From contig OZ020247.1 of assembly GCA_963971285.1 (NCBI GenBank), positions 9,816,614 through 9,880,613 on the forward strand: a stretch of DNA of 64,000 nt, given 5' to 3'. The stretch comes from Astropecten irregularis (lineage: Eukaryota; Echinodermata; Asteroidea; Paxillosida; Astropectinidae). Position 1 is the stretch's first letter. Each line of letters begins with the position of its first letter. The translations under genes and the position numbers were made by a program. Below are positions 1 to 52,320 of the stretch, piece after piece. The notes below the pieces were generated by a model that made no database searches, was not told the origin of the DNA, and saw only the letters and a program-made list of their open reading frames with translations.

Positions 1-275
1 CGTTGTACACCTTTTGAGAAAATCGTGAAAAACGGCCACAATATTTCTGAAGTCTTTTCTCTTTTATTTTTGATCTTTTAATCGAAGATCAAAAAGATTT
101 TCAGTCGTTGTCTGACTAATTTCTGGATAAATGCTCCATTTCAGGCGGAAAATGTTTAACGGTAGGTTTCTACCATCACCATCTCCCGTCATCATTTTTT
201 ATACCCTGTAAGTTAAAACTAAATCTGTGAAGATTTCTGTTTTGGTTTCTTACCAAAGTATGATACTACCTTTAA
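1..275. mobile_element. Family-A hairpin MITE, left-truncated by the window edge
   Basis: Right part of a roughly 350-bp repeat seen at least a dozen times here. It ends CCAAAGTATGATACTACC(T)TTAA; intact copies start with the reverse complement (TTAAAGGTAGTATCATACTT). The centre holds a small palindrome around GATCTTTTAAAAGATC in intact copies. No coding capacity. Confidence 0.85.
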
Positions 276-1191
276 CCCACAGTATAAAATTCATTAAGGT
301 TAAAACTGCGCAAACGTAAAACCTGGGCAAATAATATAGTCCAACGTTTATTACGCAAAATAAATGTAGTGCTAGGGAACAAAAATAATAATTGAAAACC
401 AAACGTATAAATCATGTTTTTTTCCCCCTGCTCGCCAACTTAGAAATCATAAGGTGCTTTGACTGCTTGAACTGGTCAATAGAGGGCGCTAAATGGCAAC
501 TACAAAAAAATAATACAGGCGTACTGTGTGCATTTGTCGAACCATTTCAGACGATAAATTTAATCACACAATCACAGATATCAACACTATAGTCACAGAA
601 AGGCCATGAGATAATTAATTTAGATACTTTAGACCCGAAGGTAAATAATCCAACCCTTCGTGATTACCGCTTGTTGTGTGTAGAGCTTCAGCTTGGCCCT
701 GGGGAAATGTACAACTACAACAAGACAATAGTAAGTGAATCTACAACATGATCTTCAAAAGTGTGTTAGGCCTAATATAACGTTACTCACGATACACGTA
801 CGAACGTGTAGGCCTAGGCCTAGGTGCTTTTTAGTCCAACAATTTTAAGACCCCCATAATTTCCCTAAGAAATCAAAGCCCTGCCCTCTTTCCACAAATT
901 TGGGTGGGGTTAGTGTCTTTTCAATAGCCCACAAGTTCGCAACAAGCTGGTAGGTAAATTGTATTTTTTACACTAAAATATTGTCAAAATATGTTCAATC
1001 TATTTCTAACGTAGGGTTGTCAGGACCCAGGAACATTTAAAAATCTCATTTCGGAACAGTAGAACTTCTAGAAGTTAATAATTGGCTCAACTCTCAAAGT
1101 AATCCTTGTGTGCTAAAAGACACTTATCCCAAAAATTTAACTTTGTTATATCACAACTGGTAAACATATTTAGGTGAGTTAGCATACGGTT
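276..1191. other. Intergenic, no gene seen
   Basis: AT-rich sequence with no credible exon. A roughly 60-bp stretch near 845-900 (CCATAATTTCCCTAAGAAAT and following) recurs near 10583-10630, so it is part of a dispersed repeat. TAGGCCTAGGCCT microrepeats lie near 810. Confidence 0.6.
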
Positions 1192-1344
1192 AGGGTCTGT
1201 TTGTTTAACGCACACAGGATCCTACATTTGCGAATCCACGTCGTATGCTGGGTATGCTAAAATGGGATCCGGATCAGTAGAATCCGTGATCCTGTGCGTT
1301 AAACCTGTGTCTTATTTCTCCATGGTTAAACAAACAGGCCCTTA
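1192..1344. mobile_element. Palindromic MITE with GTTTGTTTAACGCAC-type ends
   Basis: The left end AGGGTCTGTTTGTTTAACGC and right end TAAACAAACAGGCCC are inverted. Internal CACACAGGATC and GATCCTGTGCGTTAAAC also pair. A related copy lies at about 55309-55424. Confidence 0.7.
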
Positions 1345-1974
1345 GTTTACTGTAGTTCACTAGAACTAGAAGCCATGTCTGAAAATAACCCTTGTCATGC
1401 TTGTGGACTAAAGCACACTAACCCCCCTAGTCTTGGTTCCAAGACCTTTGTTGTTGCTTCCCGCGGCCCATAGGGCGCCCCCACGCGGCGGATATGGGAG
1501 AACTCAGTCAGACTTTTGGACCGTCACGAAGGTCTTGGATATTTTGTAAAGCGATGTTTAACTTTTTCTTTACTTTTCGTCGAATCTCCCTTGGATTTCC
1601 AAGGGAGCCAATCAGCAAGCGAGTTTCAGCTCACATCATGAATTATTCATGTCAGACAAACACTGTTGACCATAGGTGTATTTACGTGTCACGTTCGATG
1701 GCCTGGGGCCTATGTCATGCTGCATATCATGCAGTATATTTTGTAAACGTTTCGGGGAAAGATTTTGAGGACTGTACTGTATTGGTCTGTCCATGAAGTT
1801 CGGGCAAAAAGTGTGACATTGGGGTGGAAATTTCAAAAGTAGTGAATTGCCTTCCAAATAGAAGTTTTTAACTAACAATCTACCCTTCTTTTAAAGAAAA
1901 TATAAAGAAATTGGTTCACACCTTTGGGGAAAATGACGTGCAGTGATCAACACTGCAATTGAAAAGCCAAAATA

Positions 1975-3535
1975 CCTACATGTATGCTACATGGACACCA
2001 CTCCAAGTTCCCTACTCATCTAGTCATGTTAATGGTTCATCATTTTCAAGATATCTTTTGTTGTTGAGCAACATCCTTTGTGGTGTGTCACTATAGGAAA
2101 AAAAGGTTGGCATCACTTCTGGAGGATACTTGAAAAAACAACACATCTTTGTTTCAAGTCAGTCGAATTTAACTGACAAAACACACAATCATGAACTGGA
2201 AGTTGGATCACTTATTCATGACACACATACTTGAATATTTCTTATATAAAGAGCAATGAGAGAGTGTTATAGATGAATATGGGGAAAGATAATAACTGTA
2301 TCTCATCCGTTGTTTGCTCAGTAAGCTGCAAAAGGCCCTTCAAACTCTAGGTACCTATGCTACATGGACACCGTGTCTAGGTAGCATACATGTAGGTTAA
2401 TTGGCAAGATGTTGCCTTTCTAGCATCATACAAATATTTTATATGACTTCCTGTTCTCTTGTAATTTTTGATGTGATATGGGGACAATGGAATTAACTGG
2501 TATTCCTTAAAGAAGCTCAGCCTATCTCCTACCTAATCAGTGTAACAACATCTGAACCCATTACTACATTTGTAAAGATTGAGTAATAGTCATGTAAATG
2601 GAGCAGATTACAAATTGGTTGTTTTCCAAAACAAAATATTTGACAAGCAGTGTTCCAAATAATCTTTTGAATTCCCTGCTACACATTAGAGGCATCACTG
2701 TTCCACTCTTGCTGTAAATTCTTAGTGATATGATACCTACACTACATGGACACCACATTCATGTCCCTGTAACATCAACCTCCCTACTTGGGATGTTGAT
2801 GTTAATGCTAGCTCAAACTGCACATTTTTGGAATAAGCCCAGGTTTATCTCTTAAGAAATGTATTACAACTGCCACTATTTCTATAGTATATTTGAGTTC
2901 TGTTGCAGAATACTGAAAAATATGCATTACCTACCCTACATGGACACCGTGTCCAGTTATGCTAAGCCATGGCTAAATCTGAGTTGCGCTAACCTTTCTT
3001 TGGCAAAAAGAAATGTAATTGACACAGTACAAGATGTTACCAAAAATATACTCACCTTTAAATAATTTTCCCCAAAACTTGTCAAAATAGCAAACGTTAA
3101 GTCTACCTACCCTACACAAAAATACCTACCCTACACATGGACACCACAACTTTGCATGTTCATATCAGCCTTCGGAACTTAGAAATCCCCCCTGCAGTGT
3201 TTCCATTTTGAAACTGGTCCAGGTACCAGTCAATATGAGGCTGTTTCATTCTGGTAGAGAGTGGATTTTGTCTGTTCTATCGTAAAGACTGTACCGATGC
3301 TACATTTTACTACATGGACACCAAACAGATGGCTGATTATACTTTTGGTCATTCATGAAAAATACACAAGCAGGGTGAAGTTTCCTTCATTTCACCTTGT
3401 TTGTGACACACTAACCTTACTTACAGCATCAAATATTTTGGGCAAAAACATCAAATAAATAAAATATAGATCTGCAATCTGTACCTATGCTACACCTTCA
3501 TTTTGACCGGACACCACGTGTAGCATAGGTACAGG
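1975..3535. repeat. CTACATGGACACC motif recurring about every 190 bp
   Basis: The core TACATGGACACC (variants allowed) places its ATGG at 1991, 2364, 2746, 2940, 3137, 3314 and, as CCGG, at 3507. Spacings are 373, 382, 194, 197, 177 and 193. Most copies are preceded by TACCTA(C/T)NCTACA; the copies near 2351-2400 and 3481-3532 also have an inverted TAGCATA(G/C) partner. Sequence between copies is not obviously repeated. Confidence 0.7.
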
Positions 3536-4299
3536 GGAATGCAGCAGCAGAGTTCCTGAACAAAGACCGATCAAACCGGCATAATTTGGCATTAATTAAG
3601 GAAAAACATTCTAAAAGTAAATAATTTTTTTGTTTGTTATATTTTATCATTGTATTTTGCTAAAGAAAAATTTGTTTTAAAAATGTATGTTTTCATGTCA
3701 CAACATTTTCAAAAAAATGATGGTGGACACCAATAGTTGTTGATAATTTTTTTAACGAAGTGATAACGACAAATTATTTTTTTTGGCTGAAAGAGATATT
3801 AACACTTGGTCTTCCATATTAAATACATAATACTGGCAATCGTTCCCATTTTACCACATAAAACACACTTCAAATCTCAATAAACTGCTAAATAATGCAG
3901 TTACCCCAACTTCATCATGGACAAACCCATATCATGTACTACACAATCGAGCTGGCTTTTAACTTGGCAGTGCATATTCTATGCCGTCTAGCTCGATGAC
4001 GAGCTAGCGACCGTCAGTCGCGCTGTCGGCCGGGCATGATGGCCTCCGTCAACACGGTTATGCGTTAATTATTTTGTGGAAAGCAGTTAATTTCTTGCAA
4101 AAACTACATTTCACTTAGATCTAAATCCCAGGAAAAAATACCATTTAGTCCAAGAGTTTTCAATGATCACAAATTTACAACCCCAATTGAGGTAGAAACG
4201 ATATATTTTGTGCAACACCTGCCGCCCACAAGTGAAACATGGTGGAAGGAAACATGTACAAAACAAGTACAAAACATGTGATTTAAATTAAATGGTTTT

Positions 4300-4460
4300 G
4301 TATCGTTGAAATTATTTCGTACCGTTGAAATGATAACGTCATATGTTCATTTTTTTTTAACGCTTTCATTTTCTCGATTTAATTTCGTATTCGCAAAATC
4401 ATTTCGTATCGTTGAAATGATTTCGTCATGTTGTATCGTTGAAATGATTTCATTTTCTCA
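4300..4460 (+). repeat. Short direct repeats of TATCGTTGAAATGATTTCGT
   Basis: At least four imperfect copies of a roughly 20-bp unit (near 4301, 4320, 4406 and 4434), itself partly palindromic (GAAATGATTTC). Confidence 0.7.
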
Positions 4461-4542
4461 ATTTTATTTTCACAAACAACATGAAAAAAGTTTGGTCTTC
4501 TGAAGAAAAAACGGCCAACGTTTACAAACTATATAACAGGTT

Positions 4543-4684
4543 GTTGGTTGGCGTACGAGTTGGTTGGCGTACAAGTTGGTCGACGTACGAGTTGGTCGGC
4601 ATACGAGTCGGCCGGCGTACGAGTTACGTTGACCAAACGGCGTACGAGTTGGACAGCGTACCAGTTGGTTGGCGTACCAGTTAA
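4543..4684 (+). repeat. Tandem repeat of TTGGTTGGCGTACGAG-type unit
   Basis: Eight to nine imperfect copies of a 16-bp unit with a GTACGAG core. It keeps several frames open on both strands, which explains the overlapping small ORFs here; none is a credible gene. Confidence 0.85.
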
Positions 4685-5106
4685 CCTCCAACATCATCAT
4701 AATGTTGTCGCCTATATTGCAATGCCTTCAAGGGAATGAATTGACCAAGACGGCCACATACATGCACGCCATGGCTTTGTTGCATTGTATACATACATGT
4801 ACAGATCCGATTGTTCTATTAATTCCTGAAGCTGGCATTTTGCATATTCAATCACCATACGTCACACGTGCTGTGCCTTATTACCATAATCTGGCCCCGC
4901 CCTCAAATACAAAATATCCAAGACCTTCGTGACGATCCAAAAGTCTGACAGAATTCTCCCATACCCGCCGCTTGGGGGCGCCCTATGGGCCGCGGGAAAG
5001 CAACAACGAAGGTCTTGGAACCAAGACTATAACCCCCCATGTGGGCTTGTCAAAGTACCAAAATGTAAATGTTTTACCAGTTCCATTTTAATAGGCCCAA
5101 TTATAC

Positions 5107-5395
5107 TTAAAGGTACAATACATGATTGGTAAAGGTCACAGGACAGCACTCATACTTTGTCTGAACAAACATGTACCGGGGTACATGAAATAATAAACCT
5201 GTGAAAATTTGAGAAAATAGCGAAAGTTGTACCCGACTCAATTTTTCTTATAAAACATAAAGAATGGTTTTGATCTTACCCCGAGATCAAAACTGTTTTC
5301 AGTCTTTGTTTGACTAATTTCTGGATAAATACAGCATTTCAGGTGGAAATATTTTAACGGTATGTTTCTACCAGCACCATCTTCATACCTTGAGT
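5107..5395. mobile_element. Family-B MITE
   Basis: Begins TTAAAGGTACAATACATGAT. The left half is B-specific (TTTGTCTGAACAAACATGTA). The right half matches the family-A right half (ACGGTATGTTTCTACCA, then CACCATCTTCATACC). Confidence 0.75.
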
Positions 5396-5399
5396 GAAA

Positions 5400-5980
5400 G
5401 GAGAACTACAACAACTCAAGTGAGGGTGTCCTTTATGGTTGTTCCAAAAATCGTTCAGATGAACGATCTTTGGAAAAGACACTAAATCTTGATTTCCTTG
5501 AAAAACCCAGCATCTGATGAACCAAGATTTCCCATGGTCAGGGTTCTAGCCAGACCAATTTTAGTGATGGGCTCTAGAAATGAAGTTGAGCCCTAGTCCG
5601 CTACATGTACAGATATACGGTAGGCCTACGCTAAAAATTGGAAATTATATCGTCTTGTAAACATTGAGAATCAGTGCTTCACATTTCAAAACACAGAAAA
5701 GAGTGAACTTTATTGAGGAATGTGATGAAAATTCATGATATTGGCAATACTTTTATCCACTCTGCGGAAATTCGTGCTGGGCAGCAGAGTTTATTTCAGG
5801 CCTATGTTCCGGGCGCAAATTTCCAGTGCCGGGCTGGCCCGCCCAGCGCCGCTCACCGTCGCTAGAACCCTGCCCATGGTGACTGTTTGCACTGTTTATG
5901 AACTGTTGAGTCAATTTTCTGTCTCAAACTCAATACATTTCTTTTAGGCTTTGCAAACCCTATACGCTCCCTTTATTAGC
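5400..5980. mobile_element. Family-C MITE (reverse) interrupted by a hAT-like MITE
   Basis: Sequence 5435-5530 (AAGACACTAAATCTTGATTT, AACCCAGCATCTGATGAACC) continues at 5881-5975 (GTTTGCACTGTTTATGAACT to CTATACGCTCCCTTTAT), matching uninterrupted family-C copies such as 26434-26804. Confidence 0.8.
5539..5872. mobile_element. hAT-like MITE with 8-bp target-site duplication
   Basis: 334-bp insert with ends CAGGGTTCTAGCCAGAC and GCTAGAACCCTG, flanked by direct repeats CCCATGGT at 5531-5538 and 5873-5880. An 8-bp duplication with CAGGG ends is typical of the hAT superfamily. It lies inside a family-C MITE and is therefore younger. Confidence 0.88.
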
Positions 5981-6034
5981 TACACATGCCATGACGTGTA
6001 CTGAAAATGTCCGTACGTTCATTGAGCATTCAGA

Positions 6035-6785
6035 GGCCAATTTCACGAAACTCTTCTTATGTTAGGATCGATCTCAGGACTTAGGACAAGTCCTAGCCGT
6101 AAGATCGATCTTAGCTGTGACGCGTCCTAGGATGGATTTCACCAAACGCGTCTTAGCCAAGATCAGTCTGTCATACTGATAAATAAATTGTAATTTATTG
6201 GACAAGGATGGCCTTTCCAAATACAACGGCTGCACCATGTTTACTTGATTCAATTGGAGCGAGTGCATGCAATAGCCGTAGTTTTATGCTTGCGGTGTGC
6301 GCGTGCAGCATGAATGAAGTATGTAAACTCAAGATGGCTGATTTGTTGTTGTTTGGGCGAAAAGTTTTCGTCTACAGAAATAACGTACTCACATGGGCGA
6401 CGAGGTCAGATTCATATGCCAATCTTGAAATAATCCCTGTCAAACGATAGACCTATATCCTCTACGTCTTTCTCGTCTTTAACAGAATATTAACTCGCCT
6501 AGGCTAGGCCTACCTGCGGCTCCCCGCCCACCGAGTTGCTATCACTCAGCAAGAAGCGTAAGCGCCATTGGCATTGTTGCTATTCAGTATTTAATATGTA
6601 CGTGTTCGGGCAGATAAGACGACCCTCAGACCCGTCCTAAGTTAAGACGAGTTCAGCCGCGTTGCTATGGAAGTTGAGATGCATTGAACGCGTCTTAACT
6701 TTGGTGAAATCGATCCTAGGACACGTCCTGACATTGGACGAGTTACCCTTCCTAAGACGCATCTTAGCGTTTCGTGAAATCGGCC
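6035..6785. mobile_element. Hairpin MITE with GGCCAATTTCACGAAA ends (family E)
   Basis: Ends GGCCAATTTCACGAAACTCT and its inverted partner finishing TTTCGTGAAATCGGCC. Internal palindromic blocks are built from CTTAGGAC, CGATCCTAGGAC and AACGCGTCTTA. The middle (6190-6600) is non-hairpin DNA without a recognised gene. Confidence 0.75.
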
Positions 6786-24200: not shown

Positions 24201-27200
24201 AAGTAGTCATAAGGTACCGTTTTGGACCGTCCATCATATTCTTTTGCCATTTTATATTTTTTACATCATAAAACTCAATTTATAATTAGTCCCTCCAGAT
24301 GGTACCGACAAATTGGGTGGCTCATGAACTATATAACCTGGCTGCTACAGGCGCACGAAGGCTAATCAAGCACAAAGCCATCTCTTACCTCACAAGTGCA
24401 TGTACCCATTTACACCAGGTTGAAGAGAAGCAATATGTGACAAAGTATCTTGCCCAAGGACGTAAGCACCACTAACCCATGACTGGATTCGAACCCACAA
24501 TCTGTAGATTGGCCCCAAGATCTTGAGTACAAAACGTCCCGAGCCATTAGGCCACAGCCCTCCACAAAGCCATGGTTCAAGCAGGACTCTTATCAAAGGA
24601 TTTTTTTCCCTCCATTTTTGACAGAAGTCCCCCATGATCAAAAAACGAGCCCTTTTAAACCACTATTTGCAAGATACACATCTTGTCATCTTGTAGGGCA
24701 CTGCAGTTTGCTGCAATTTTTCTACATGTATTTCCACCGCTTTTTTCAGTTTAAAGGGAGCATATAGGATTTGTTTGAAATAAAAGGCTCCCATATCTGA
24801 CGTCACGAAATCACACAGATTTGTCTGCTGCCCCCATTGACAAAATTTAGAGAATCTGAATTTTGGGGAGCTTGCGGATTGAGCATGTTGAGTAATTTAA
24901 GGATTATAAGCAAGGTTTGAACATCCACTTTAAGATCAAGATTTCACACTTGCATCGAATCATGATAATGGGAATCGGGCATCAGGTATGTAGACAGATG
25001 ACAAAGTGATCTTCACTCTTTTCTTTTTGCTTCTTTTGGTCATTTTTTGTTTTACCAGAATGCAGCCATTTTTGAGCAGCATTATCCAGAGACATTGAAG
25101 AACATTTTCGTCATCAACGCTCCTAAGATCTTCCCTCTTGCCTTCTCCATCATCAAGCCATTCCTGCAGCAAAATACTCGGAGGAAGGTCAGCGTTTTAG
25201 GAAGTGAGTTATGCCGAGACGTAATGTCAGGGCTTTTGTTTTAATTTTGGGATGCGAACTTGAAAAAACAGAAGATGGTAATGCCACCCCTAGTCACCAA
25301 GGTAATGGCTCAGGGGCACCAAGGCAATGACTAGAGGCAACAAGACAATGACCAGGGGCACCAAGGCAATGACCAGAGGCACCAAGGCAATGACCAGGAG
25401 CACCAAGGCAACGACCAGGGGCACCAAGGCAACGAACAGGGGCACCAAGGCAATGATCAGGGGCACCAAGGCAATGATCAGGGGCAACAAGGCAATGCTC
25501 AGGGGCAACAAGGCAATGATCAGGGGCAACAAGGCAATGACCAGGGGCATCAAGGCAATGACCAGGGGCATCAAGGCAATGACCAGGGGCACCAAGGCAG
25601 TTCTTATGGACACCTAGACAATTTTGTTTGGCGCCGTCATAAAAGTTCAAGCATTAGGCATCAAAACCATTGCCTCCAGTTCTCTGTATATTGTCCCTGT
25701 CCCAGTTATAGTGGAATGCCACTTTAACAAACACGCCGGGATGCACAGATATTGTCCGTTATAGCGGTCATTCGTTATAGTGATCAATGTTCAGCAGGCA
25801 TATACATTGTACACACAAATTGGGAGCCAAGGATGATGTTTGGTATAGCCAAATGTTCGGTATAGCAGCGTTCCACTGTATTTGCTATGTGTGACCTTGA
25901 TTGATCATAGTTCCCTGTATAAGTGATGGATATTCAATGTGACAGTGCATCATATTCTGTTGCCTGTTATGCAATTTCTGCTTGTATGAAAGATACTATC
26001 ATACTTTGGTAGCATGCTGAAACAGAAATCTTCACAGATTTACCTATAACTTACAGGGTATAAAGATAGTGATGGTAGTAACATACTGTTAATATATTTT
26101 AGCCTGACATGCTGTATTTATCCAGAAAAGAGTGAAACAAGTGACCAAAATTATTTTTGAAGATCAAAAATAAGATGTTTTCTCAAAAAATGGGCACCGT
26201 TTGGCTATTGTACCCTGTTCAGGTGATTGGAAGGAGGTCCTGCTGAGGCACGTAGATCCTGATAACCTGCCAGTCCACTGGGGAGGCACTGCTACAGGGC
26301 CAGACGGAGACCCCAAATGCACGCACAAAGTGAGTATGAGGCTGGGATCTTTTTCCTTGTTTGTGTCTTTCCTCGAAGCACTCAGGGGTCGATTTCACGA
26401 AGGTTAACCTCTACAAAGAGCTGCAATGTATCATTAAAAGCAGCGTACAGGATTTGCAAGGCCTCCAAAAAATTTTTTATTGAGTTTGAGACAGAAAATT
26501 GACTCAACAGTTCGTAAACAGTGCAAACAGTCACCATGGGAAATCTTGGTTCATCAGATGCTGGGTTTTTCAAGGAAATCAAGATTTAGTGTCTTTTGAA
26601 AAGATCGTTTGTAGGAACAATTTAGTAGCATTTCGAAAGCGTGGTGTAACCGTGAGGGATTCGAAAGGGGGCAAGATTATTTCAGCCGTATTTCTGCTAT
26701 CCAGATGAACAAAGTGTAAAAAGGTACATGATACAACATCTGTAAGGAAGTTTAAGACCTTCACTTCATTCAGCCAAAGCGCAAATCCTATATGCTCCCT
26801 TTAAGTCTTACAATTGATAGTAAAGTTCCGATGAGTTTGGTGAAATCGACCCCAGAAGTGGTAGGTTTGCTTTTATATCAAAAGTCACTGAATCTCTGCA
26901 TGTATAGCTGGAAAGGATGGTGAACTTGTGGCATGAAGGCTGTTTTCTCTTGGTTGAGGACAATAGACTGCAAAGTCAGCGCTGTGGAACATTTGAGGGC
27001 ACCAAGGCAAAACGAGGCACGGATGACAGAAAAAGAGGGATTTTATTCCATAAGTAAGCGTTTTAGTCTGCAGAACAAGAAGTATGTGTAGGAATAATAA
27101 TGTGTAACCTGTGTATTGAGAAATTAAAATACATGGGTTTACACTTAAGCAGTTTTGATCGCAACTTCAAAGTAAGGCACTTCCACGCATGTGCACTTTT

Positions 27201-30200
27201 CGAAGTGTAAACCCGTGTATTACAAACAGGGAAGGTTGAAGTTCATGCTTTCTTATTTTCTTCATTTGGATCTGCAGATAGTCTTGGGTGGTAAAGTTCC
27301 AGAGAGCTATTATATCAAAGGAAGAGATGTATCCAGTCAAGGAATGACCAGCCATCTACTATCAAGAGGGAACAGCCTGAATCTAACTTACATTGTCACA
27401 AAACCAGGCAGTATACTCAGGTACACGTTGTTTTGTAGTCCGGGGCCCGATTTCATAAAACTTACGACGCGTCGCAGAGTTAAGACGCATCCTTTCTCTG
27501 TAGACTCATCACATAGATGCGACGCGTCGCAGCAACACGATTTGCGACGCGTCGCAGAGCTTTATGAAATCGGCCCCAGGCCCATATGGAAATTTCAGCA
27601 AGCTTGCTGCTAGCTTGTCCATGCTAGCTTGCTGCAAGCTTGTCCGTGCTAGCTTGCTGCAAGCTTGTCCGTGCTAGCTTGCTGCAAGCTTGTCCGTGCT
27701 AGCTTGCTGCAAGCTTGTCCGTGCTAGCTTGCTGCAAGCTTGTCCGTGCTAGCTTGCTGCAAGCTTGTCCTAATTTGCATTTTTGGTATCCTTGCAGCAA
27801 GCTTGCCACCCATATGCCTGCCTGGAAGCTTGCCTGCTTTGCTAACAAGCTTGTCCTAATTTGCGACGACAAGCTTGCATCCAAGCATTATTGCGGCAAG
27901 CTTGCTGCAAGGATACCATCATTGCAAATTATAGGCCTCACTTCTCTCAAGCTGCTTAGCACAAAACTACTACCGGGTTCATTTTTTACTTACCCGAAAA
28001 GTTTTGTAATAAGCAGCTTTCTGTTAGCGGTCCCTCCTGGGGTTGAAACTTGATATAGAAAATTACTGAATTAGAGACTGACTTCCCATTCTTTTGCCGG
28101 AAAAATATCACTGCGGTGCTTGCTGTCGACTTTTTTAAAACTTTAATACAGGAGGGTTTGTTATAGTGGTATGAGGCCCAGAAGAATTATGATTTATACC
28201 CTCAAATCTAGTTGTGGTGTTACCAGGGGTAGATTTCAAGAAGCCCTACAATCGATCGTAACTCGAGTTACAAAAGATAACCCATCGTATCCTATACAAC
28301 TTCAACATGGGGCTGCAATGTATCATGATTTCTACGATTGAAGTTACGATGAGTTTGGTGAAATCGACCCAAGGTCCATTAAAGGGAGCATATAGGATTT
28401 GCAAAGATGTGCTTTTTTGCTGAATTTGGTACTTAAAGGTAGTATCATACTGTGGCGGTCGCGGCGGAGGCAGAACATCTACCAGCGCCTCTTATCCCTC
28501 ACAAATATATTCATTAGCCATGCGAAAGGGTGAGCGGCTATTCAGAGCACAAGAGGGGATATAACGAACGGTGGACAAAGCCTAGGGGCTGTTCGTTGGG
28601 CGGAAGTTTACCACCACTTGGATTATAGTTGATAACATTTTGAATCAGAGCAACAACAAAGTGTGACATAAATAAACCTCACTAACACACAGCGTTTCCA
28701 ATTACTGAACTTGGACTTGATTGGTTTATTCACAGTTAAACAAGGATCAATCAATGAGGATTATGAGAAATCAATATGAGGATTATCAGAAACTATGTGT
28801 CAATCATAACAGCACTGTTTGCATGTGTTCGGTTATACCTCACAGGGTAACCCTCACCACTCAAAGAGTCTCCTAGTCTCCAAGAGGCTAACTCTTGTGG
28901 CTAAACGATCACTCAGGTAAACCTCGCTACCAACTATGTAGGATTCAATGCAATGAATAACCCTCCCACAGTCTACGTGGAAAGTCCCCTTCGGACAGGT
29001 AGTCCAGGTGCAATGAGCCCGAGGATTATAATAACCCTCAAGAGATCCTCAGATCCTCATACAATGAACCTCACACACGGCCAAGCCAGCACATTGATCA
29101 CAGGATCACAATTCAGCCATTACCGCACCAGAATGGTGTCTACAGACGACATGCAACCCGCTATATAACCAACCGATGTCCCACTAGCTATCCAGCCCTA
29201 GGTTCACACTCACGCTCAAACCCGGTTATACTATAACCCTGCCTACTTAACAAGTCCACTTACCGATAGCACTCTGAGCAACCCTCACGTTGAGACCAGA
29301 TCGTTCTCAAACTCTCTCGCTGGCACGGTAACTATGCACAGTCTACACAGTACACATGCATGGACCAGTCTGCCTATCAGACCACTCACACACACACTCT
29401 CAACACATGCGCTCAATAAAAAAACGACTCTTTTATGTAAAGTACACAAGTCTACGGCTGTTTCGTTACAATACTTTGGTAAGAGACCAAAACAGAAATG
29501 TTCACAGTTTTACGTATAACATACAGGGTATGAAGATGGTGGTGGTAGAAACATACCGTTAAATTGTTTCCGCCTGATATGGTGTATTTATCCAGAAATT
29601 AGTAAAACAACGACCGAAAATCATTTTGATCTTTTAAAAGATCAAAAATAAAAGAGAAAAGACTTACCGTGGCTGTTTTTCACTGTTTTCTCAAAAAGTG
29701 GGCACCGTATGGGACTGAAATTTTCACAGATGACTGTTGCTGTATCTGTCTTGATATTTTTGCCCAGGAATCTGCATTTCTGTGATAAAAACCAAAGTAC
29801 GATATTACCTTTAAACAGCAGTGAAGGTCTTTAAATTCCTTACAGACCTTGTTTCATGTACCTTTTTACGCTTTGTTCATCTGGATAGCAGAAATACGGT
29901 TGAAATAATCTTGCCCTCCTCTAAATACTTCACGGTTACACCACGCTTTCGAAATGCTTAAGAAATCGTTCGGACAAACGGATTTAGTGTCTTTTTAAAG
30001 GACACTAAATCTTGATATCCTTGAAAAACCCAGCATCTGATGAACCAAGATTTCCCACGATGACTGTTTGCACTGTTTATGAACTGTTATGTCCATTTTC
30101 TGTCTCAAACTCAATAATTTTTTGTTGGAGGCCTTGCAAAACCTGTACGCTGCCTTTAAAGGCAGTGTCATACTTTGGTAAGAAACCAAAACTGAAATGT

Positions 30201-36050: not shown

Positions 36051-36897
36051 TGTCGATATGTCCTTATTACATGTGTCGATATGACCTTGTTACATGTGTC
36101 GATATGTCCTTGTTACATGTGTCGATATGACCTTGTTACATGTGTCGATATGTCCTTGTTACATGTGTCGATATGACCTTGTTACATGTGTCGATATGAC
36201 CTTGTTACATGTGTCGATATGTCCTTGTTACATGTGTCGATATGACCTTGTTACATGTGTCGATATGACCTTGTTACATGTGTCGATATGTCCTTGTTAC
36301 ATGTGTCGATATGACCTTGTTACATGTGTCGATATGACCTTGTTACATGTGTCGATATGTCCTTGTTACATGTGTCGATATGTCCTTATTACATGTGTCG
36401 ATATGACCTTGTTACATGTGTCGATATGTCCTTATTACATGTGTCGATATGACCTTGTTACATGTATCGATATGTCCTTATTACATGTATCGATATGACC
36501 TTGTTACATGTGTCGATATGTCCTTGTTACATGTGTCGATATGTCCTTATTACATGTGTCAATATGTCCTTGTTACATGTGTCGATATGACCTTGTTACA
36601 TGTGTCGATATGACCTTGTTACATGTGTCGATATGTCCTTGTTACATGTGTCGATATGACCTTGTTACATGTGTCGATATGACCTTGTTACATGTGTCGA
36701 TATGTCCTTGTTACATGTGTCGATATGTCCTTATAACATGTGTCGATATGACCTTGTTACATGTGTCGATATGTCCTTATTACATGTATCGATATGACCT
36801 TGTTACATGTGTCGATATGTCCTTGTTACATGTGTCGATATGTCCTTATTACATGTGTCAATATGACTTTGTTACATCTGTCTATATGACCTTGTTA
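36051..36897 (+). repeat. 23-bp minisatellite, about 37 units
   Basis: Unit TGTCGATATGACCTTGTTACA (plus TG). Two main variants, GACCTTGTT and GTCCTTGTT (also GTCCTTATT), occur in runs of the order A-A-S, a 69-bp higher-order unit. The order of variants in the first half is partly repeated in the second, at about 15 units (345 bp). ORFs of 134-135 codons through it are artefacts. Confidence 0.97.
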
Positions 36898-37195
36898 CCC
36901 CTTGCCGTTTTTTAATTTTTTGATGAAAAATCAAATGTTCTGAAACGGATTCAATTCTCATCGCACAGGAGAAATACACCTGTTTTCGATCTAGAAATGA
37001 GTTTTTTGCGATCTGGGACATCTTTTAGGATGATTTGGAACACTTTGGGAAAAAGTCAATTTTAAGGGCAAAAATAACAAAAACGGCAAGGGGTACCCCT
37101 TGCCGTTTTTTCAATTTTTGATGAAAAATCGAATGTTCTGAAATGGATTGAATTCTACTCACAGATGCCGAATAGACCTGTTTTTAAACTAGAAA
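36893..37195 (+). repeat. Repeat with CAAGGGGTACCCCTTG palindrome (array P1)
   Basis: Half-palindrome at 36897 and a full 28-bp palindrome centred near 37095 (core CGGCAAGGGGTACCCCTTGC). About 190 bp separates them. The body (GAAATGGATTGAATTCTACT, AGGATGATTTGGAACACTTT) matches the array at 45590-46340. Confidence 0.88.
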
Positions 37196-37594: not shown

Positions 37595-38395
37595 TTTTTC
37601 TGTCTGGGGGAACTACCGGGGGGCACTACTTCATACTGGGGAACTACTAGGGGGCACTACTTCATACTGGGGGAACTACTAGGGGGCACTACTTCATACT
37701 GGGGGAACTACTAGGGGGCACTACTTCATACTGGGGGAACTACTAGGGGGCACTACTCCATACTAGGGGAACTACTGGGGAACTACTAGGGGGCACTACT
37801 TCATACTGGGGGAACTACTAGGGGAACTACCGGGGGCACTACTTCATACTGGGGGAACTACTAGGGGGCACTACTCCATACTGGGGGAACTACTAGGGGA
37901 ACTACCGGGGGCACTACTTCATACTGGGGGAACTACCGGGGGCACTACTCCATACTGGGGGAACTACTGGGGGCACTACTAGGGGGCACTACTTCATACT
38001 GGGGAACTACTAGGGGAACTACTTGGGGCACTACTTCATACTGGGGAACTACTAGGGGAACTACCGGGGGCACTACTTCATACTGGGGGAACTACTGGGA
38101 GGGGCACTACTCCATACTGGGGGAACTACCGGGGGCACTACTCCATACTGGGGGAACTACTAGGGGAACTACCAGGGGCACTACTCCATACTGGGGGAAC
38201 TACTAGGGGAACTACCAGGGGCACTACTCCATACTGGGGGAACTACTAGGGGAACTACCGGGGGGCACTACTCCATACTGGGGGAACTACTGGGGGAACT
38301 ACTAGGGGGGCACTACTTCATACTGGGGGAACTACCGGGGGCACTACTCCATACTGGGGGAACTACTAGGGGAACTACCAGGGGCACTACTCCAT
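37595..38395 (+). repeat. GGGGGAACTACTAGG minisatellite (about 32-bp units)
   Basis: Roughly 25 copies built from GGGGGAACTACTAGGGGG, GCACTACTTCATACT and shorter GGGGAACTAC blocks; unit length varies because the GAACTACTAGGG sub-block is sometimes doubled. Confidence 0.95.
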
Positions 38396-38830
38396 ACTCC
38401 ATAATGCTGTTTTATGCTTGGAAGTTGTTCCGTTAACTTGTATGCATCCGTTAGGGTGTTCTCGATCAATTAAAGAAAAAGTAAATTTTTGGCCCAAATT
38501 GATAAAAACGACAAGGGGTACCCCTTTGCCATTTTTGTCACTTTTCACCCTTTTTTGACATGTCATGAAAATGCTTTCTAATGCCTTCTTAGACACCAAT
38601 AATGCTGTTTTGTGCTTGGAAGTTGTTCCTTTCACTTGTATACATCCGTTAGGGTGTTCTCGATCAATTAAAGAAAAAGTAAATCTTTGGCCCAAATTGA
38701 TGAAAACTATAAGGGTACCCCTTGCCATTTTTGTCACTTTTCACCCATTTTTTACACGTCATGAAAATGATTTATAATGCCTTCTAAGACATCAATAATG
38801 CTGTTTTGTGCTTAAATGTTGTTCCTTTCA
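38396..38830 (+). repeat. 190-bp tandem repeat with the same GGTACC palindrome (array P2)
   Basis: Two and a fraction copies (about 38401-38590, 38591-38785, start of a third). Each contains AATGCTGTTTT(A/G)TGCTTGGA, GGGTGTTCTCGATCAATTAA and (C)AAGGGGTACCCCTTTGCC or AAGGGTACCCCTTGCC. The body differs from array P1, but the stretch around the palindrome is shared. Confidence 0.9.
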
Positions 38831-39164
38831 CTTGTATGCATCCCTATAGTAGGCCTAGACATGTAAAAATAAAAAGAATTACGTGACCAATAAATGTCAA
38901 TATAAAATACCAGAGTGAGCAAAGATGACAGTATAAAAATACAAAAATGGCCTGAAATTTTGCATTTGTGACATGTTTTAAATATTTCATGTTTATTTAA
39001 CACACAAATGTATACTTAATCAACAAAAGCAAGGTCTCAATTGGATGATGGGAAAAATATACTTCGGAACTAAATGAAAATTGGTGACACATGTAAAGTA
39101 AAAGCTCAAGATGCATACTTTTAAATAAAGGCAAATGTCCACTTTGTTGCTGCCAAATGAAATG
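38831..39164. other. AT-rich spacer, no feature seen
   Basis: No repeat ends or exons recognised between array P2 and the next MITE. Confidence 0.55.
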
Positions 39165-51867: not shown

Positions 51868-52320
51868 TGAGTCCTCCATTGCTATGGTGTGGAGAAACCA
51901 GTCCCTCACACTGAAACAAGACTGATGGTCTCTTCATAGTACAAATAGGACTGGAAGGGGTGCCTAGTCTACAGCAAGGCAATGGATGCCTCCACCCCTA
52001 TGGTGTGGAGAAACCAGTCCCTCACACTGAAACAAGACTAATGGTCTCTTCATAGTACACATAGGACTGGAAGGGGTACCTAGTCTACAGCAAGGAAATG
52101 GATGCCTCCACCCGTATGGTATGGAGAAACCAGTCCCTCACACTGAAACAAGACTGATGGTCTCTTCATAGTACAAATAGGACTGGAAGGGGTACCTAGT
52201 CCACAGCAAGGCAATGAATGCCTCCACCCCTATGGTGTGGAGAAACCAGTCCATCACACTGAAACAAGACTGATGGTCTCTTTACAATACAAATTGGACC
52301 GAAAGGGACATAGGTTATAA
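51868..52320 (+). repeat. 116-bp tandem repeat, about four copies
   Basis: GGAGAAACCAGTCCCTCACA starts at 51891, 52007, 52123 and 52239, exactly 116 bp apart; units also contain GACTGATGGTCTCTTCATAG and GGACTGGAAGGGGT. Confidence 0.95.

Follow-up and report, generated by a model that had tools for sequence, protein, structure and literature searches.

Within the window (the whole 64,000-nucleotide stretch analysed, C10:9816614-9880613 in a genome of 475.7 Mb) lies a segment, 1428-5029, that the first-pass annotation took for a single 3.6-kb element with 120-bp inverted ends, holding a motif at multiples of about 190 bp. The motif and its spacings are real; the single element is not. On comparison with the rest of the genome the segment splits: 1428-1782 and 3933-5029 together form a unit of about 1.45 kb that recurs at many places, and this unit has been broken by a 2.15-kb insert that carries the motif, here called the box. 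The parts are these.

1419-1427, no strand: 9-bp target site duplication TAACCCCCC, left copy, identical to 5030-5038
1428-1782, plus strand: left part of the outer element, with an inverted end of about 120 bp at 1428-1548 (arms, genome copies)
1783-3932, plus strand: nested insert bearing the boxes (missing from 30 outer copies, present elsewhere)
1783-1800, plus strand: inverted end on the insert's left, starting with T against G in the C15 and C17 copies
1983-1999, plus strand: box 1, TATGCTACATGGACACC, core 1987-1999 (similar place in relatives X and Y)
2352-2387, plus strand: box 2, palindromic form, core 2360-2372 (motif scan, folding, partner half-site)
2734-2765, plus strand: box 3, core 2742-2754 (partner half-site within 2751-2792)
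2928-2959, plus strand: box 4, core 2936-2948 (a marginal partner half-site)
3123-3145, plus strand: box 5, core 3133-3145, 2 mismatches (motif scan)
3292-3322, plus strand: box 6, core 3310-3322, with TACCGATGCTACA and core pushed apart
3479-3534, plus strand: box 7, degenerate, a perfect stem of 17 bp whose loop holds GGACACC (folding z -5.94)
3722-3731, plus strand: possible box 8, GGTGGACACC only (sequence match)
3908-3928, plus strand: right inverted end of the insert, with CATGGACA common to the box (end comparison)
3933-5029, plus strand: right part of the outer element, with 4908-5029 as its inverted end (arms, genome copies)
5030-5038, no strand: 9-bp target site duplication, right copy, identical to 1419-1427

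Mutator-like elements have long inverted ends and a target duplication of about 9-11 bp, and the outer element has both. Its arms (1428-1548 and 4908-5029, about 120 bp) are 94-95% complementary, and the duplication agrees at nine bases of nine in 17 of the 23 testable copies (the window's included), at eight of nine in 3 and at fewer in 3. A first look at this unit gave 1466 candidates, 40 of which were scored; in 26 of the 30 copies fetched the point of insertion could be aligned across and was empty, and the remaining four loci lack the length to contain the insert, so none of the 30 long-TIR copies holds it. With its ends, duplication and empty sites, the outer element is a Mutator-like transposon, and the boxes do not belong to the long-TIR element in which they had been placed. 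The window copy has no long reading frame, and 16-bp GTTGGTCGGCGTACGA repeats lie within it at 4543-4682.

What, then, is the insert? It has discrete inverted ends (GGGTCTGTCCATGAAGTT/AACTTCATGGACARACCC), empty sites and copies elsewhere, as a cut-and-paste DNA transposon should. A whole copy, 98% alike, is on C17; that on C15 is in two pieces (93% and 90%) with a gap between them; that on C1 (89%) is missing its left part; a fragment at C10:4355227 is 75% alike; and C9:20835873 and C21:17742158 have the left end only. On the right the insert closes with CCC at 3926-3928, and the ATAT beyond it (3929-3932) may be a target duplication, the flanks being ACAT/ACAT at C15, ATGT/ATAT at C17 and, with 3 extra bases, GTAT/ATAT in the window. 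Galileo and the P superfamily leave target duplications of 7-8 bp, and none of that length was found in the three insert copies that have both ends. A long reading frame is absent, the longest ORF wholly inside being 68 aa. On the best reading, the insert is a member of an unnamed, low-copy transposon family whose inverted ends are short. Other sources may already list this family; in a literature search of titles and abstract openings (repeat databases and subscription papers lay outside its scope), no paper was recognised as being on the element. Both ends of the insert contain the core ATGGACA, which was striking initially; it is missing from the left ends of the two relatives, X and Y, described below (their right ends were not found), and should carry no weight. 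The box core as a general part of inverted ends was rejected, since in the ends compared it is confined to the insert family.

Inside the insert, CTACATGGACACC cores begin at 1987, 2360, 2742, 2936, 3133 (2 mismatches) and 3310, at spacings of 373, 382, 194, 197 and 177 bp, and 193 bp farther on a GGACACC lies in a stem-loop; these spacings are the ones first reported. Every CTACATGGACACC site with up to 2 mismatches within 1428-5029 falls in the insert; the outer part holds one weak site, at 4758, with 3 mismatches. The best period of the six cores is 190 bp, a fit equalled by 20 of 20,000 random placements, by 5 of 20,000 when the two insert ends are added, and by none of 20,000 when two degenerate sites, chosen post hoc, are added as well. 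Does anything besides the box recur at this period? Aligned as 190-bp slices, in the way the first-pass annotation had proposed, the insert shows a mean pairwise identity per 10-bp bin of 24-35% outside the box, 41% over the 10 bp that precede the core and 64% in the core; local alignment of the spacers with the boxes masked finds only a trace above shuffles (4 of 100 shuffle sets equal it; mean z 0.33). (Box 7 is anchored at 3506 in the slice-identity, period, substitution and partner tests and at 3507, one base off, elsewhere.) A tandem repeat finder gave no row inside the insert, and the units are not alike throughout, as those of an ordinary tandem repeat would be, identity outside the box being near background. 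The claim that only the motif is kept is thus borne out in the window, and it holds in family Y as well.

Elsewhere in the window there are a 23-bp minisatellite (36051-36898, 37 copies, 93% matches), a 196-bp tandem repeat (38401-38843, 2.2 copies) adjoining a complex 31/43-bp array at 37604-38398, and a 116-bp tandem repeat (51882-52307, 3.7 copies). Some boxes have ACATGT-like insertions after TACC or TACCTAC, at 1977-1983 in the window and at aligned places in L010 and L012; they fall in different boxes in different copies, as if the point gains short palindromic repeats.

How might such an arrangement have come about? One answer is the plain decay of an old tandem repeat, with the box as the part slowest to vanish or latest to be homogenised and with no present function. 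Such decay would have to leave six identical 10-bp cores standing among spacers of near-background identity, and it would have to do so while the boxes, in three of the four insert relatives, diverged less than the spacers. Counted against the window copy, with hand-set box limits, substitutions number 0/196 in the box and 31/1937 in the spacer for C17 (one-sided Fisher p 0.049), 2/195 and 80/1780 for C15 (p 0.009), and 2/153 and 84/1270 for C1 (p 0.003), p values that are not independent, since the insert copies are related by descent. The C10 fragment (9/76 and 104/588; p 0.13) shows no significant constraint on the box, as plain decay would have it. Gaps, which these counts exclude, number 6, 7, 0 and 6 in the box and 10, 167, 27 and 81 in the spacer (C17, C15, C1 and C10), and in C17 they make up a larger share of the box than of the spacer. 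The suggestion of selection at one segment is in this way supported in three relatives of four.

Some boxes are palindromes. The partner half-site is kept beyond chance at three of the seven boxes, each score being reached by none of 2,838 spacer windows; it is marginal at box 4 (reached by 78 of 2,838) and is not kept beyond chance at the remaining three. One might imagine that the palindrome acts in folded form, as RNA or as extruded DNA, and besides the three kept partners, 2340-2410 and 3475-3540 form stems with z values of -2.14 and -5.94 respectively, set against -1.00 to 2.16 for seven spacer stretches. We consider such a hairpin or cruciform signal very unlikely: four of the seven boxes, with z between -0.79 and 0.31, fold no better than chance, an adjoining inverted repeat accounts for most of the strong z at 2724-2810, and the left half-site is kept even at boxes where the right one has been lost.

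The relatives of the insert tell more. Family X is known from two C1 loci, 98% alike over a length of 1.08 kb. Its left 230 bp, through box 1, can be aligned with the insert at 62-63% (BLAST; E between 1e-9 and 1e-10, the search covering a few kb). Its boxes, with intervals of 363, 168, 202 and 170 bp in X1, have the near-palindromic form GATGyTACATGGACAC-C-GTGTCCTGTwACATC and are the best-kept part of units that are a true tandem repeat, alike along their length: dimers of about 370 bp are about 90% alike (in pieces of 168 and 314 bp), and half-units are 62-71% alike over 96-310 bp. A profile of the X unit matches the insert with E <1 at the boxes only. The earlier idea of a very old satellite of about 190 bp, with one segment under selection, finds support here, in that X is still a tandem repeat; plain decay, too, draws on X as a real array with its dimer duplication.

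A search with the left-end pattern found 12 places (the control found 1): the six already known, C9:14608016, C29:3649280 and four that belong to a third family, Y, whose copies lie at C17:11516k, C20:4248k, C21:538k and C30:1144k. Recent movement of Y is suggested by two copies, each at its own site, that agree at 99.6% over 1.95 kb. Y shares the left 53 bp with the insert (77%, E 2.6e-7) and 78 bp with X (74%, E 3e-9); within Y, BLAST similarity is limited to 43 bp around two boxes, and the boxes, GATGTAACATGGGACACC and variants with one-base gaps, are separated by unrelated spacers. No transposase was identified in a Pfam scan of four ORFs from the last 1.0 kb of the 3.0 kb of Y that was read, the one match, below cut-off, being GTP_cyclohydro2 (E 0.029); nor did the window ORF at 27191-27613 have a Pfam match. 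One locus on C17 (L011) holds both a young Y copy (1-2112, minus strand) and an insert-family copy (4110-6250, plus strand), about 2 kb apart with their left ends facing.

Motif spacing, which was to be compared in other copies, was compared among the insert, X and Y. Measured from a left-end anchor, boxes start at 181, 554, 936, 1130, 1330 and 1507 in the insert (C17 copy), at 181, 544, 712, 914 and 1084 in X, and at 179, 541 and 903 in Y, so that the first three shared registers (insert/X/Y) stand at 181/181/179, 554/544/541 and 936/914/903 bp. Y fits X within 11 bp, which 4 of 20,000 random placements equal, and its fit to the insert, within 33 bp, is equalled by 209 of 20,000, in a test that is post hoc, the Y box patterns having been picked by eye from the sequence. 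With all boxes counted, X fits the insert no better than chance (11,309 of 20,000), because the X boxes at 712 and 1084 have no counterpart in the insert. The spacers between families align locally no better than shuffles in six of seven comparisons, the exception being insert and Y at 210-540, reached by 14 of 300 shuffles. Under stricter scoring the stretch from left end to box 1 is not significant either (76, 40 and 202 of 300 shuffles), the same stretch that the looser BLAST aligned between X and the insert.

Similar registers in X and Y, whose spacers are unrelated, are hard to square with plain decay. Are they perhaps a matter of chromatin? The boxes might occupy linkers and either set up or make use of a nucleosome array of about 185 bp over the element; in favour are the best period of 190-192.5 bp and the first three shared registers, which stand about 180, 545 and 915 bp in from the left end. 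X spacings, though, vary from 168 to 202 bp, and tandem duplication alone accounts for the period; nucleosome phasing as the explanation strikes us as improbable. A different proposal is that the spacing is itself a code: a dimer-binding box recurring about one nucleosome repeat apart, counted from one end, in an array that would organise chromatin or a multi-subunit transposition complex, its positions kept while the sequence between was free to change. We regard this as rather doubtful.

The box also occurs beyond these families. Exact CTACATGGACACC occurs 385 times in the genome (21 times for the reversed pattern), and the 30 places fetched, which were the first in the list and not a random sample, comprise 3 of the insert family, 5 of family X, 11 75-bp satellite arrays, 10 dispersed satellite-like copies (assigned by eye, and with a profile in which they were themselves included) and 1 seemingly unrelated. 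A large hidden class of 185-bp exact-core arrays was rejected, as CATGGACAC pairs 173-203 bp apart are not in excess, with 21 places against 30 for the reversed pattern; judged from the listing, 10 of the 21 are in four insert loci, 1 is in X and 10 are elsewhere. Box arrays spaced at 75 bp were seen at C9:23865511-23867698, C1:25608672, C8:4840548, C10:14684193 and C11:15739237; the unit read at C1 is non-coding, its GGTGGAATGACCC resembles the X inverted end by eye, and single degenerate copies of the 75-bp unit are scattered. Two exact cores, C11:1334009 and C11:1334310, lie 301 bp apart on the same strand.

The presence of the box in 75-bp satellites and in dispersed single repeats means that it spreads within repeats, a further point for plain decay, which on balance we think unlikely. 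Could the boxes instead be remnants of a repeated exon, reading DATWTP in one frame? The frame GAT GCT ACA TGG ACA CC is common to many copies. Translation of two 75-bp arrays, X1 and 11 single loci showed stops in the frames that run through their boxes, and the idea, largely rejected on that account, is barely credible.

What we propose, with a probability of roughly 0.55, is a decayed array of 170-200-bp repeats inside an unnamed transposon family, in which a palindromic box has been kept, probably as a docking site. The interior of the insert would have begun as units of about 170-200 bp repeated in tandem, as is still visible in X; the DNA between boxes would then have decayed, leaving the box, some 16-32 bp long and palindromic at first, with a half-site of about GATGYWACAtGGACAC, whose kept copies count off from the left end. 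Such a box could be the docking site of a dimeric DNA-binding protein, either the family's transposase or a host factor that it exploits, and several sites would help in the recognition or assembly of the transposition complex. Going by sequence, a putative protein-binding site fits the box best, and binding by a dimeric protein would be the simplest cause of its persistence at similar distances.

Repeats inside transposons are often taken as passive. Here, three families with a common end, similar box positions and no recognisable likeness in their spacers amount to a natural footprint experiment, one that singles out the few bases of importance and perhaps the distances too. Should the box indeed be bound by a protein, transposon function, the birth of satellites (the 75-bp ones) and perhaps chromatin spacing would be linked in one testable system.

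Known systems share one or another of these features. In Sola2-type elements the inverted ends are short and the target duplications are AT-rich and 4 bp long (PMC3627910); the insert is like them in its short ends, and its own 4-bp duplication is only suggested. The Helentron-borne arrays of Crassostrea, HINE and Pearl, are mobile elements with central tandem repeats, of about 160 bp in Pearl (PMC7492417), whereas the insert, set beside Helentrons by description, is bounded by inverted ends, and no tandem run was reported within it. Meloidogyne satellites that share a CENP-B-box-like motif are given as 32-64% alike with short motifs kept (PMC3694981); they resemble the insert in a motif shared amid divergence and differ from it in being satellite arrays, not the interior of a transposon. 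In Tetris (TIR-220) of Drosophila virilis, internal repeats feed satellites (PMC4079207); TIR-220 units are reported to be about 94% alike, whereas the window's insert copy keeps the box only. Galileo, a foldback-like element of the P superfamily in Drosophila, has internal tandem repeats that hold extra sites for the transposase domain, tested there by band shift (PMC3688188). Its sites lie in long inverted ends, whereas the array of the insert fills the interior and the ends are short. In the anatomy of their internal repeats the two are alike, here as read from bases alone, and Galileo is the nearest tested precedent among those seen.
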